DNA of 32,623 nt from a virus. Made by a program: the position numbers and the translations under genes. The stretch covers positions 1 to 32,623 of the IMG/VR virus record IMGVR_UViG_3300042914_002581; one strand, given 5' to 3'. This document shows positions 27,237 to 32,623 of this stretch, piece after piece (position 1 is the first letter of the stretch; every line of letters starts with the position of its first letter). The notes beneath the pieces were generated by a model, which searched no databases, was not told the DNA's origin, and saw nothing but the letters and a program-made list of their open reading frames with translations.

Positions 27237-27863
27237 TTATTGGTTTTTAATGATTTCCATTACTGATAGCATCCCCACTTCTAAACTCTCCCCATCCCCT
27301 TGATTGAGAAGGAAGTCGGTTATTTCCGCATGTTGAGCCGAGGTTACTTTTAAGATTATCTTCTTGTTGGGCTTGTCGTTCTCGTTTGGCTCATCCTCCC
27401 CAGAGTTGTAGTTCAAGTCCTCAAACTTCTCCAAGGTGTTCCATAAGTCTAATCCCATAGCCTCGAGCATCTCTTGCTCCCAATCGTTTGCTAATAGGTC
27501 ATAGTCGTATGAGCCGAAGGAGGCGTTATCGAGAATGACTATCTTTTTAAGCGTTTCTACGCTCGTAGAGGCATCCAAAATCTTACAAGGTACACTTGCT
27601 ATCCCCAAGTCTTTGAGTGCGTATAAGCGCATATTTCCGCCTATTACGATATACATCTGCTGAGAGGGGTTATCGCCTTTCTCCTTGAATGGGAATACAA
27701 CGAGTTCCTTGATTTTAAGCATTTCAGGGTTGTCCTCTATGCTCTTTTTGAGCTTATCGAACTTCTCATCTTTGATGTGCCTTGGGTTCTTGGGCAGTCC
27801 CTCGATTTGTCCGAGGTTGTTTCTGAGTTGATAGACCATTAAGGTCTTAGTTTCTTTGAGCAT
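27237..27863 (-). CDS. ParB/Srx-like nuclease domain protein (IbrB-like partner)
   Basis: 208 residues. The N-terminal half has the ParB/sulfiredoxin fold signature: GLPKNPRHIKDEKFDKLKKS (22-41), a strand ELVVFPF, then IGGNMRLYALKDLGIASVPC (74-93), where GGNxRLxAL matches the nucleotide-binding G-(E/G)-x-R-x-x-A motif. The C-terminal half is acidic, without an obvious helix-turn-helix, so it is not a classical partition protein. It is encoded 3 nt after a PAPS-reductase-family gene; this pairing matches IbrA/IbrB and similar phage pairs, whose role is thought to be regulation or DNA/nucleotide modification. A second in-frame ATG lies at residue 9. Confidence 0.75.
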   Translation of the reverse strand: MLKETKTLMVYQLRNNLGQIEGLPKNPRHIKDEKFDKLKKSIEDNPEMLKIKELVVFPFKEKGDNPSQQMYIVIGGNMRLYALKDLGIASVPCKILDASTSVETLKKIVILDNASFGSYDYDLLANDWEQEMLEAMGLDLWNTLEKFEDLNYNSGEDEPNENDKPNKKIILKVTSAQHAEITDFLLNQGDGESLEVGMLSVMEIIKNQ

Positions 27864-27866
27864 AGC

Positions 27867-28781
27867 TTAATATATTTCACAAGATTCGTTACAACCAAAG
27901 CCCTCGTCTATATCAAGGCCGTTTATTTGAGTTCCAACGTATTCAATAGCATTATTTATGGGCTCTCCTAACTCCTTGCTTTTAGCGATTTCTCTTACCC
28001 CTTCAACTCCTATTCCTTTATTAAAAAACTTCATGTGAATGTTTCTTTTTAAGAACTCTCTCTTGCTTACAAGCGGAGCTTTATCATAATACTCATTTTC
28101 CCATCTCTCAAAGTTGTTAAAATGCTGTGGATTCTCTTTCATAATCCAAGCAAGAGTTCGAAAACTTTTCTTCCAACAAGTCTTACAATTCCCTTGATAG
28201 CTTTTTAGGTTTAGTCTAAAAGGCATATCTCTCCAAAATGTATTGACCATAGGCTTTGTTACTTCCAATTTCACAAGCGGATAAACAAGCCCCTTGCCTT
28301 TGGCGATAGATGACATTCTATCTATTTCATCAACCCTTATGCCGATTGCAGTAAAATATGTGTTACGCTTCCACCCAGTAAAATTGGTATAATTAGCGAT
28401 TGTATTTGCTTTTAGTACCCTTGAACAACTTGGACTTCCAAAAGTAGGAATACCAAAGTCTTGAATCAATCTTTCAAATGGCTCTCCATTCCTTGAAGCA
28501 TTATTAAAGTTTTTAAGAACAAACTTTCTGTGTTTATACTCAACCCATTTTAAGTTTAAGCCGAACTCTTTATCACATTTGTCTGCAAATACAAGAGTTT
28601 CTTCATTTTCTTCCCCTGTATTAGCAAAAACGCATCGTATTTCGTGTGTTTTGGAGTAGTTTTCAATAATCCATGCAGCCATAAAACCGGATGTTTCTCC
28701 TCCACTAAAAGAAACCAAAATCCTTTTCCGCTCCTTAAACTGAGGAATATCTGCCTTTAATGATAAAAATGGATGTTTCAT
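27867..28781 (-). CDS. PAPS reductase-family / N-type ATP pyrophosphatase (IbrA- or DndC-like)
   Basis: 304 residues. The PP-loop is SFSGGETSG (24-32), with SGGxTS of PAPS-reductase-type enzymes. GIRVDEIDRM (147-156) and PSCSRVLK (117-124) match the adenylate-binding and Cys motifs of the IbrA/DndC branch. Further cysteines in CKTC (199-202) and GCNESC at the C-terminus (297-301) could hold an iron-sulfur cluster. The family activates a substrate by adenylation and transfers or reduces sulfur; in this branch the substrate may be DNA or a nucleotide. It starts as ATGA with the upstream small gene and is followed 3 nt later by a ParB-like gene. Confidence 0.8.
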   Translation of the reverse strand: MKHPFLSLKADIPQFKERKRILVSFSGGETSGFMAAWIIENYSKTHEIRCVFANTGEENEETLVFADKCDKEFGLNLKWVEYKHRKFVLKNFNNASRNGEPFERLIQDFGIPTFGSPSCSRVLKANTIANYTNFTGWKRNTYFTAIGIRVDEIDRMSSIAKGKGLVYPLVKLEVTKPMVNTFWRDMPFRLNLKSYQGNCKTCWKKSFRTLAWIMKENPQHFNNFERWENEYYDKAPLVSKREFLKRNIHMKFFNKGIGVEGVREIAKSKELGEPINNAIEYVGTQINGLDIDEGFGCNESCEIY

Positions 28782-29698: not shown

Positions 29699-30035
29699 CT
29701 GTTTTTTGTTTATATGATTTAGTGTATGGGTTGAATCTTTTTGGTTCTATTTTCGAAATAAGCTTTCTTACTGCCATATTTCCTTTTCCTTTTCCGCTTA
29801 GGTCTATATCTCCGTATTTGACCATGAAATACTTCTCGCCAGTCCAAAAACATCTTCTTGGTATTACATAGTTCTCATATCCGGAGGTATATGCCCTCAT
29901 GATTTGACTCTTAAAGATTTTTTGGCACTTTCTGAGCTGCATGATGATATCATTCTTCTTAATCTCGTCTGGTTGAGAAACTATAAATTCATAGAAAAGC
30001 TCAAAGGCAGACTTAGCGACTACTTTCTCTTTCAT
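29691..30035 (-). CDS. Unknown replication-region protein
   Basis: 114 residues, basic. It begins with a helix (SAFELFYEFIVSQPDEIKKN), has a short central segment YVIPRRCFWTGEKYFMVKYG and a Lys/Arg-rich C-terminus (FNPYTKSYKQKTDE). No family is recognised. It overlaps the DnaA-domain gene by 23 nt and the SSB-like gene by eight, so it is part of the replication operon; base composition is more AT-rich than the late genes. Confidence 0.55.
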   Translation of the reverse strand: MKEKVVAKSAFELFYEFIVSQPDEIKKNDIIMQLRKCQKIFKSQIMRAYTSGYENYVIPRRCFWTGEKYFMVKYGDIDLSGKGKGNMAVRKLISKIEPKRFNPYTKSYKQKTDE

Positions 30036-30486
30036 AAGTGTTCATAGAATTTATTTCAACGACTTCTGCTAAAATTTCTTCTGCAATTTTAACGGCTTTC
30101 TTGTATTGATTGAATATTCCGAATAACTTATCTCCCTTTTTCAAGGTATAGGCTTCCGCCATTCTCGTTTTCTTTTGTAGTGTTTTATTAAATAATTCCT
30201 TTAACTCTTCGCAAATCTCGGAATATTTTTTATCATAATCTAATAAATATCTATGATTATCTACCGCGTGGATAACCGTTGAATGGTCTTTTTTGTTGTA
30301 GAATTTAGCAATATCCTTCAAGGTAGCCCTTGTGTACTCCCTTGAAAAAGCCATACAAAGAGTCCTTGGGGTAACTATGGTTCTCTTTTTGCTCTTTTCA
30401 AAGACAAATTCCTTAGGAATGCCAATGTAGTTGGTAACAACATCCGTAATGTAAACCATTGTTTCTATGTCTTTCTTGCTTGTCAT
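30013..30486 (-). CDS. Stand-alone DnaA domain IV-like DNA-binding protein
   Basis: 157 residues. The central part matches the C-terminal DNA-binding domain of DnaA: RTLCMAFSREYTRATLKDIA (41-60), then KFYNKKDHSTVIHAVDNH (61-78), with the DHSTV(I/V)HA signature that contacts the DnaA box. The AAA+ ATPase domain is absent, so it cannot open an origin alone; it could mark an origin, compete with host DnaA or recruit the helicase. The last 60 residues are Lys/Glu-rich and unrecognised. It shares one base with the DnaB-like gene (stop and start in contact at 30486). Confidence 0.82.
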   Translation of the reverse strand: MTSKKDIETMVYITDVVTNYIGIPKEFVFEKSKKRTIVTPRTLCMAFSREYTRATLKDIAKFYNKKDHSTVIHAVDNHRYLLDYDKKYSEICEELKELFNKTLQKKTRMAEAYTLKKGDKLFGIFNQYKKAVKIAEEILAEVVEINSMNTYERESSR

Positions 30487-31793
30487 TAGAATGGGTTTAC
30501 ATCGGTTGACTGAAATTCCGTTATCCTCGTGTACCGCAAATCGGTGTTGGCTATTGCCGTTCCTGTTTCGCCAGCTCTGTTCTTTCGGACTATTATCTCC
30601 ATTAGATTATCGAGCTTCTGAAACTCTGGGTCATCCTCCGCTAAGTAAGCCGAAGGCCTGTGAACGAAGATAATTTTGTCTGCATCATACTCAAGCTGAC
30701 CGCTCTCCCTCAAATCACTCGTGTAGGGGCGTTTATCTATCCTTTTCTCGCTATCTCTGCTCAAAGAGGATATAACACATACCCAAATGTTTTGCCTTTT
30801 ACTTAGTGCCTTAAATTGCTTCGAGATATTGGTTATCTGTTCTACCTTTTGCTTGGTAGCATCTTCCTTTATAGGGCTCACGAGTTGAAGGTAGTCCACG
30901 AATATCCCTTCGATTTGGTGTTGGCGTTTTAGGCGCACCACTTCTGCCTCTATGGATTGGGTGGTAGCTTGTGGCAAATCGGAGATGTAGAGTTTGAGTT
31001 TCTTAATGCGGTCGATATGCCTCCCAATGGTATTGACTTCCTCTATGCTCATATCCTTATCCACGTTATTGAACTTTTGTCCGTTGATGCTTGATATGTT
31101 CGACACGAGCCTTGATACAAGTTGTTGCCTACTCATTTCGAGGGTAACGAAGCCAATGGAATGTCCATTGAAAGCCATATTGAAGGCTAACTGAAGGCCG
31201 AGGGTTGTCTTTCCGTGTGCTGGTCTGCCACCAAGCAGGATAAGGTCTGGGGTTGTGAATCCGCTAATAATCTTATCGAGTGGTCTGAGGTAGGTAGGGC
31301 TTAGGGTAATCTTCTCCTTGCCATCCTTAATGCGAATCAGCTTTTGGGTAAGTTCGATAGCTGCTGAATAGGCATCCATTGAAGCGGATACTTCCTTCTC
31401 GCCATTGAGCTCGGTAAAGTCATCGAAAGCCTTTTGGATATCGAAGTTCTTGGCTAAGTCTTTCTTAATTTCTTCGAGCCTTCTCATTTTGTAGGCTTCG
31501 AACAAATCTGCCTTGTAGGTTTTCCAATGCATCACCGCCATGGGTGATTCACCGAGCCATACAGCGTAACTCGGAAGGTCAGGGGTAAACCCCAGCTCTT
31601 TCATCTTCTTGCTTACAGAGATAGGGTCTATCGGTCTCTGCTCGTGGTAGAGTGTCTTAATCGCTCGGAAGCAATTAGCGTACTCTCCTGTGAACAGCTC
31701 ATCGCGCATGTTCACTATCCCGGCCTCTCCCCTCATATCCTTGTTCATTAGGATTCCGAGGACAAGCCCTTGCACTTGGTCAATATACTGCAT
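30486..31793 (-). CDS. dnaB: DnaB-type replicative helicase
   Basis: 435 residues. The N-terminal half is helical, as in the DnaB N-terminal/linker region. The RecA-like domain carries Walker A GGRPAHGKTT (188-197), Walker B IFVDYLQL (297-304) and the later motif SSLSRDSEKRIDKRPYTSDL (342-361) followed by RESGQLEYDADKIIFVHR, all in the DnaB order. The hexamer unwinds the phage replication fork. It follows the initiator-like gene (14-nt overlap), the O-P type pairing of many phages. No fusion to a primase (TOPRIM) is visible, so it would use the host primase. Confidence 0.95.
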   Translation of the reverse strand: MQYIDQVQGLVLGILMNKDMRGEAGIVNMRDELFTGEYANCFRAIKTLYHEQRPIDPISVSKKMKELGFTPDLPSYAVWLGESPMAVMHWKTYKADLFEAYKMRRLEEIKKDLAKNFDIQKAFDDFTELNGEKEVSASMDAYSAAIELTQKLIRIKDGKEKITLSPTYLRPLDKIISGFTTPDLILLGGRPAHGKTTLGLQLAFNMAFNGHSIGFVTLEMSRQQLVSRLVSNISSINGQKFNNVDKDMSIEEVNTIGRHIDRIKKLKLYISDLPQATTQSIEAEVVRLKRQHQIEGIFVDYLQLVSPIKEDATKQKVEQITNISKQFKALSKRQNIWVCVISSLSRDSEKRIDKRPYTSDLRESGQLEYDADKIIFVHRPSAYLAEDDPEFQKLDNLMEIIVRKNRAGETGTAIANTDLRYTRITEFQSTDVNPF

Positions 31794-32427
31794 CTTTTGG
31801 GGGTTGGTATGTGGTTACTTGGTTTGGTTGCTCGGTAAATTCATTTGGTATGTCATCCTCCCAACATCTCTGCCGTAGGTATGTCGCTGGCATCTTCCTA
31901 TACTTCACATCGGACTTCCAACGAACATACAAAGGTACGGTTTTAATTATCATATCCACATCTTCTTCACATAATTTTTCCCAAAGCTGTTCGCACATCT
32001 TCTTACCCTCTTTTCTATCGTAGATTTTCCAAAACAAATCAAACTTCTCTTGCTTGTCCGAATCGAGTTCCTTTTCTTTTTTCTTTTTATATATTTTTCT
32101 TTTTTCTTTATTAGTAATATCTTTATATATATTATCTATATTAGATATATAGTCCGAATCATGTTCGAACTTGTTCGAAGTATGTTCGAAGTTGTCTAAA
32201 TCGATTTTGCCTTCAACCATTCCAACTGCCAGTCTGCCTATTGAGCCTTCTTGTGGCATTCTTTCTTGGAATGAGTAGTCCATAATCGCGTCATAGGCTT
32301 CGAGCCTTAAATCGTTTGGGAGCAGTCTTATGGCTATGTAGAAGTCTCTACAAAACGCCATGCAGTCTCTTTTGTGGTCGAGTGGGGTCATAGCCTTGAT
32401 GACCCAACTTGGTATGGTTTCTTCCAT
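31780..32427 (-). CDS. Replication initiator-like protein (lambda O-like position)
   Basis: 215 residues. The N-terminal 75 residues form a helical domain (KAMTPLDHKRDCMAFCRDFY, LPNDLRLEAYDAIMDYSFQE). A low-complexity linker rich in Lys/Asn/Asp follows (about 80-125, NKEKRKIYKKKKEK). The C-terminus, KFDLFWKIYDRKEGKKMCEQ, then YVRWKSDVKYRKMPATYLRQ, is the common C-terminal module of phage replication proteins. The helicase gene follows with a 14-nt overlap. The linker DNA contains phased TTCGAA repeats and an AT-rich run, like the origin inside the lambda O gene. The start ATG lies 13 nt after the preceding gene's stop. Confidence 0.7.
   Translation of the reverse strand: MEETIPSWVIKAMTPLDHKRDCMAFCRDFYIAIRLLPNDLRLEAYDAIMDYSFQERMPQEGSIGRLAVGMVEGKIDLDNFEHTSNKFEHDSDYISNIDNIYKDITNKEKRKIYKKKKEKELDSDKQEKFDLFWKIYDRKEGKKMCEQLWEKLCEEDVDMIIKTVPLYVRWKSDVKYRKMPATYLRQRCWEDDIPNEFTEQPNQVTTYQPPKDAVY
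32056..32190. other. Candidate replication origin: phased iterons and AT-rich run inside the initiator gene
   Basis: On the minus strand four iterons begin at 32190, 32179, 32169 and 32158 (TTCGAA three times, then TTCGGA), spaced 11, 10 and 11 bp. An AT-rich run of about 85 bp (32065-32151) follows, bounded on both sides by the same 9-mer GTCCGAATC (32056-32064 and 32152-32160). Iterons beside a DNA-unwinding region within the initiator gene mirror lambda ori. Confidence 0.5.
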
Positions 32428-32440
32428 TTGGTTTTTTTGG

Positions 32441-32623
32441 TTAAGATATTCCTACAAATCCTTCTCTGCGTTGAATCTCCTGCAAGACGCACTGAACTTT
32501 CTCCTTGGCTGTTCTCTTCACCTCATCATTTGAGCCGAAGGATGCCACCCATTCCATTGAGTCTCTTTCGAACTGCAAGTCGAGAGTTCGAATCCCTTTG
32601 AGCCATTTTCTGTATTCTTTCAT
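32441..32623 (-). CDS. Small unknown protein at the right edge
   Basis: 60 residues, start ATG exactly at the right edge (32621-32623); a longer N-terminus beyond the window cannot be excluded. Sequence: basic/acidic helix (EYRKWLKGIRTLDLQFERDS, VKRTAKEKVQCVLQEIQRRE). No family is recognised. It lies directly upstream of the initiator-like gene in the leftward block. Confidence 0.5.
   Translation of the reverse strand: MKEYRKWLKGIRTLDLQFERDSMEWVASFGSNDEVKRTAKEKVQCVLQEIQRREGFVGIS

Follow-up and report, generated by a model that had tools for sequence, protein, structure and literature searches.

A probable replication origin inside the DUF6291 initiator gene of a phage

Here we report a probable lambda/SPP1-style replication origin (probability about 0.8) embedded in the linker of a phage's own initiator gene. 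It was located in the virus record IMGVR_UViG_3300042914_002581 (IMG/VR), of which positions 1 to 32,623, the whole stretch analysed, are referred to as the window. Repeats lie within the initiator gene, an AT-rich tract is adjacent to them, and a helicase gene adjoins. An in-gene origin, as originally predicted, is favoured because an unrelated DUF6291 gene adjacent to dnaB has the same array in its linker, because in-gene repeats are the rule among related initiators (62 of 75 genes), and because the cores of the repeats survive changes in the protein. New here are the initiator family, the spacing of the iterons by single helical turns, and the recurrence of the array.

Results

The structural genes of the virus record are located on the plus strand and the replication block on the minus strand, from about 26.2 kb. 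The order of genes on the minus strand is the initiator-like gene (31780..32427; 215 aa), a DnaB-like replicative helicase (30486..31793; Pfam DnaB_C, 1.4e-67), and a small protein with DnaA domain IV (30013..30486; Bac_DnaA_C, Pfam PF08299, 3.7e-19). At its 3' end, the initiator gene overlaps the start of the helicase gene, which bears out the claim that a helicase is encoded next. The DnaA-domain-IV protein is a possible regulator or alternative initiator; its relatives were recovered by tblastn in every clade tested except the unrelated phage L074 (described below). The copy in one close relative (L005) is distant (28% identical), yet the helicase of the same relative is 96% identical. GC skew was uninformative as evidence of an origin, as it follows gene strand and switches near 26.2 kb. 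A circular join of the window ends was considered and dropped; relatives have several kb more early genes upstream of the window end, so the window looks incomplete there. At 27237-28781, a PAPS-reductase-like protein is encoded beside a weak ParB_N-like protein, a pair that we take to be reminiscent of IbrA/IbrB.

The initiator comprises a DUF6291 N-domain, a lysine-rich linker predicted to be disordered (residues 79-98 and 108-121, pLDDT < 50), and an initiator-like C-domain. The N-domain (aa 25-79) matched Pfam PF19808 with E = 9.1e-8 and 32.6 bits (curated cut-off 27.2), covering only positions 4-58 of the 79 profile positions, and the C-domain matched PHROG 9327 (primosomal protein, 1.1e-12) and PHROG 270 (replication initiation, 2.4e-11). 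These matches and the position of the repeats confirm that origin-like DNA lies inside the flexible linker of an initiator-like gene. AlphaFold2 modelled the DUF6291 domain as a small helical bundle (helices 27-34, 38-54, and 63-75; mean pLDDT 77.7). Fold searches with models of the full-length protein and of the N-domain returned nothing at E <= 0.001 or Z >= 2, and a sequence search of the PDB matched nothing, so that the fold lends no support to DNA binding by this domain. A lambda O-type N-terminal domain was not found in the initiator by Pfam, which assigned DUF6291, or by PHROG, whose matches were not to O-like families; judged by its sequence, the protein is not a member of the lambda O family. 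No paper on DUF6291 was found, and its name was absent from the PubMed Central texts searched, which also contained nothing on DUF4373 together with replication.

Five TTCG(A/G)AC sites are present on the coding (minus) strand of the initiator gene. Iterons 1 to 3 read TTCGAAC and are located at 32184..32190, 32173..32179, and 32163..32169 (gene positions 238, 249, and 259), the second being TTCGGAC in L004-L006; iterons 4 and 5 read TTCGGAC and are located at 32152..32158 (gene position 270) and, past the AT-rich tract, at 32056..32062 (gene position 366). The original prediction comprised four TTCG(A/G)A iterons at 11/10/11 bp on one helix face and two identical copies of GTCCGAATC bounding the AT-rich DNA. 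The four iterons and their spacing were confirmed, and both copies of GTCCGAATC are present, but the first (32152-32160) is iteron 4 and the second (32056-32064) has iteron 5 as its core; the bounding repeats are thus not separate elements, and one site is present in five copies. A spacing of about 10.7 bp per copy means that iterons 1 to 4 face one side of the helix. Since these intervals are not whole numbers of codons, the copies fall into alternating reading frames (F-E, T-S-N, F-E, and D-S-D), and the array is therefore not a protein repeat.

TTCGRAC occurs 20 times in the window (6.9 expected), a count reached in none of 100 shuffles. With the protein fixed, a run of four sites at 9-12 bp was obtained in 17 of 100,000 synonymous recodings that followed the codon use of the whole window and in 3 of 100,000 that followed that of the minus strand. 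As the motif in this test was picked post hoc, with the data already seen, motif-free figures are fairer: any 6-mer occurred three times at 10-11 bp in 16 of 5000 recodings, and the repeat score of the initiator gene had a p value of 0.010 in a codon-permutation test. The gene that precedes the initiator has two more TTCGAAC sites (32567-32592), oppositely oriented and about 20 bp apart, which were also found in L002, L005, and L006.

The proposed DNA unwinding element (about 32067..32151; 87% AT) is situated between iterons 4 and 5 and is the most AT-rich 85-bp stretch of the window. The 80-step stretch from 32072 onward is also the least stable, with a nearest-neighbour energy of -75.6 (window mean -106.7, standard deviation 5.7), a departure of 5.5 standard deviations towards lower stability. 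The claim of about 85 bp of AT-rich DNA beside the iterons thus holds, and the tract is kept in all relatives.

The close relatives (L001-L019) differ in what they retain of the array. All five sites are kept in L001-L004 (97-100% identical), and iteron 5 was found in L001-L006. The substitutions in the array of L003/L004 (gene positions 248, 253, and 268) are all non-synonymous and fall in spacers or at the A/G position; residues change from T to I or N, N to D, and D to N, and every core is intact. That cores survive amino-acid changes agrees with the proposed conservation of iterons despite protein change; the few substitutions suggest constraint on the cores, although alone they are no proof. 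In L005 and L006, iteron 1 is lost through a synonymous change and four sites remain. The first 235 bases of their gene are identical and the C-half has diverged, with the breakpoint inside the AT-rich tract; L005 is thus a mosaic: its N-half is the same and most of the iterons are kept, but its C-half is different. In L007-L015, the N-domain is 73-76% identical and the AT-rich tract is kept, but a deletion has removed the array except for two degenerate relics, TTTGAAC and ATCGGAT, spaced by 11 bp. Other strong repeat clusters were not found in these loci. Conservation of the iterons across the clade therefore holds for L001-L004 in full, for L005/L006 with one site lost, and not for L007-L015. 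The initiators of L016-L019 are without DUF6291, and those of L017 and L018 have AT-rich 21-bp repeats at the equivalent place. This pattern fits N-domain and sites changing together, but the iteron-free clade is a real gap, and it and the synonymous loss of iteron 1 count against an in-gene origin. A search of phage records with the origin region (blastn) gave no match.

Two further repeats were observed in these relatives. A perfect 15-bp inverted repeat, TAAAAAAAAACTCTC / GAGAGTTTTTTTTTA, is located at L017:686-722 (also in L016, L018, and L019) in the initiator that is without DUF6291, within its AT-rich linker frame, and resembles a bidirectional terminator placed within an open reading frame. 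In a single relative (L004:423-700), long GCTGACGCTGAC / GCTGCCGATGTC tandem repeats precede the initiator.

In-gene repeats were assessed across related initiators with the codon-permutation test, which keeps the protein and the codon counts and scores the excess of short direct repeats. Repeats beyond this null were present in 62 of 75 distinct initiator-like genes, with peaks nearly all near mid-gene (mostly at 0.4-0.6 of gene length) and, in many cases, a GATAATGTAAATG- or GATATAGATATAG-like tract after the repeats; the corresponding figure for 130 other ORFs of the same loci was 2.3%. Among the repeat clusters of several whole loci, that of the linker ranks first or nearly so. Because the 75 genes had partly been found via linker or C-domain peptides, DUF6291 genes were also drawn by Pfam family alone (291 genomes), and 10 of 20 genes in this sample passed: 10 of the 15 that bear a linker, and none of the five short linkerless ones, which make up half of all failures. 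Built-in origins thus look common in the DUF6291 initiator family. Bacterial genomes (L264-L268) were seen to encode short DUF6291 proteins of 89-116 aa that stand alone, with neither linker nor repeats.

All IMG/VR contigs were searched for the exact array (TTCGRAC-4-TTCGRAC-3-TTCGRAC-4-TTCGRAC), with no protein information used. Six stretches were recovered, all in DUF6291 genes adjoining dnaB. Four belong to the clade of the window (L090, L259, L260, and L261), and two, which share one locus type, represent an unrelated phage type (L074, with 65% GC, and L099). L074 has its array at positions 330, 341, 351, and 362 of a DUF6291 gene (173 aa; E = 1.6e-7), within the linker, and the end of this gene overlaps a DnaB_C gene (8.5e-25). 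The L074 gene differs from the window gene in that the extra conserved base is on the opposite side of the palindromic TTCGAA, in that the array is followed by GGAATGG repeats rather than a strongly AT-rich tract, and in that the known C-domain is absent. Among the matches listed in a three-copy TTCGRAC scan of IMG/VR, many were other repeats, and several matches lay in initiator-like genes. Many isolate prophage records (L021, L023, L024, L027, and others) have a triplet of the type TTCGGAC-N4-TTCGGAC-ATTTTCGGAC close to their ends, at about 630 bp from the end of the locus; it is perhaps an attachment site.

Discussion

Plasmid iterons often act as both operator and origin, and binding of the protein to the array alone would not separate the two. 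The array might accordingly be an operator through which the protein represses the initiator-helicase operon or regulates copy number, with replication starting elsewhere. We consider this improbable: the array is situated about 235 bp into the coding sequence, where there is no promoter-like enrichment, it adjoins the least stable DNA of the window, and the order of repeats and tract recurs in many initiators. A slightly smaller chance is given to the DnaA-domain-IV protein (30013-30486) or host DnaA being the real initiator and using DnaA boxes elsewhere. That protein is encoded beside dnaB, and relatives of it occur in the related clades tested, iteron-free ones included; however, it is without an AAA+ domain, and the cluster of DnaA boxes sought as a sign of a DnaA/oriC-type origin was absent (26 near-matches, 29.2 expected).

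The repeats could also be a by-product of a low-complexity linker, without function as DNA. The linker does evolve fast, with deletions, and one clade is without repeats. This explanation is nonetheless rated the most doubtful of the three, as the copies alternate in reading frame, protein-preserving recoding seldom yields such an array, an unrelated DUF6291 linker contains exactly this array, and the effect is absent from the control ORFs.

If the array is an origin embedded in the initiator gene, the DUF6291 N-domain of the initiator would bind the TTCG(A/G)AC iterons, stacked one turn apart on one helix face. The composition of the tract and the examples of lambda and SPP1 suggest that the complex would strain and melt the adjacent DNA (87% AT), and gene order and the relatives of the C-domain point to this domain as the part that may recruit or load the phage DnaB encoded directly downstream. 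We also lean towards the broader view that DUF6291 is the DNA-binding domain of widespread phage initiators, each with a matching iteron-plus-AT origin in its linker, and that domain and sites move as a cassette, which would account for TTCGAAC sites at 11/10/11 bp recurring in unrelated phages. If so, DUF6291 would gain a function, and the origins of many uncultivated phages could be placed from sequence alone, read directly off the gene. Each gene would hold both a protein and its target, and such natural pairs could reveal the specificity code of DNA reading.

The designation lambda-like is appropriate for architecture only, because the initiator is a DUF6291 protein with no match to a lambda O domain and the sites recur with every helical turn. 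In lambda and the Stx phages (P27, 933W), ori is located in the middle of gene O, with iterons followed by an AT-rich tract and the helicase-loading gene adjoining (PMC7466680). The window differs in having sites every 10-11 bp, with one copy on each side of the AT-rich tract, and its phage encodes its own DnaB next door; no P-like loader was found. Similarly, oriL of SPP1 lies in gene 38, which encodes the origin-binding protein, with repeats and an AT-rich unwinding element, and SPP1 has a phage DnaB-type helicase (PMC6316719). SPP1 differs in its additional dependence on a separate loader (gp39) and in having oriR as a second origin; gene 38 and the window initiator were compared by architecture, no sequence relation having been shown. 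The Lin1244_N/DUF4373 initiators of Vibrio phages have a related C-domain directly upstream of dnaB but a different N-domain, and the single one tested (L167) shows no repeats. Most DUF6291 proteins differ in having a GGRP motif and AACC(C)-type repeats, whereas the window gene has TTCG(A/G)AC sites and no GGRP; the DUF6291 (PF19808) phage proteins nevertheless share the N-domain of the window initiator, and the relatives sampled mostly carry in-gene repeats.
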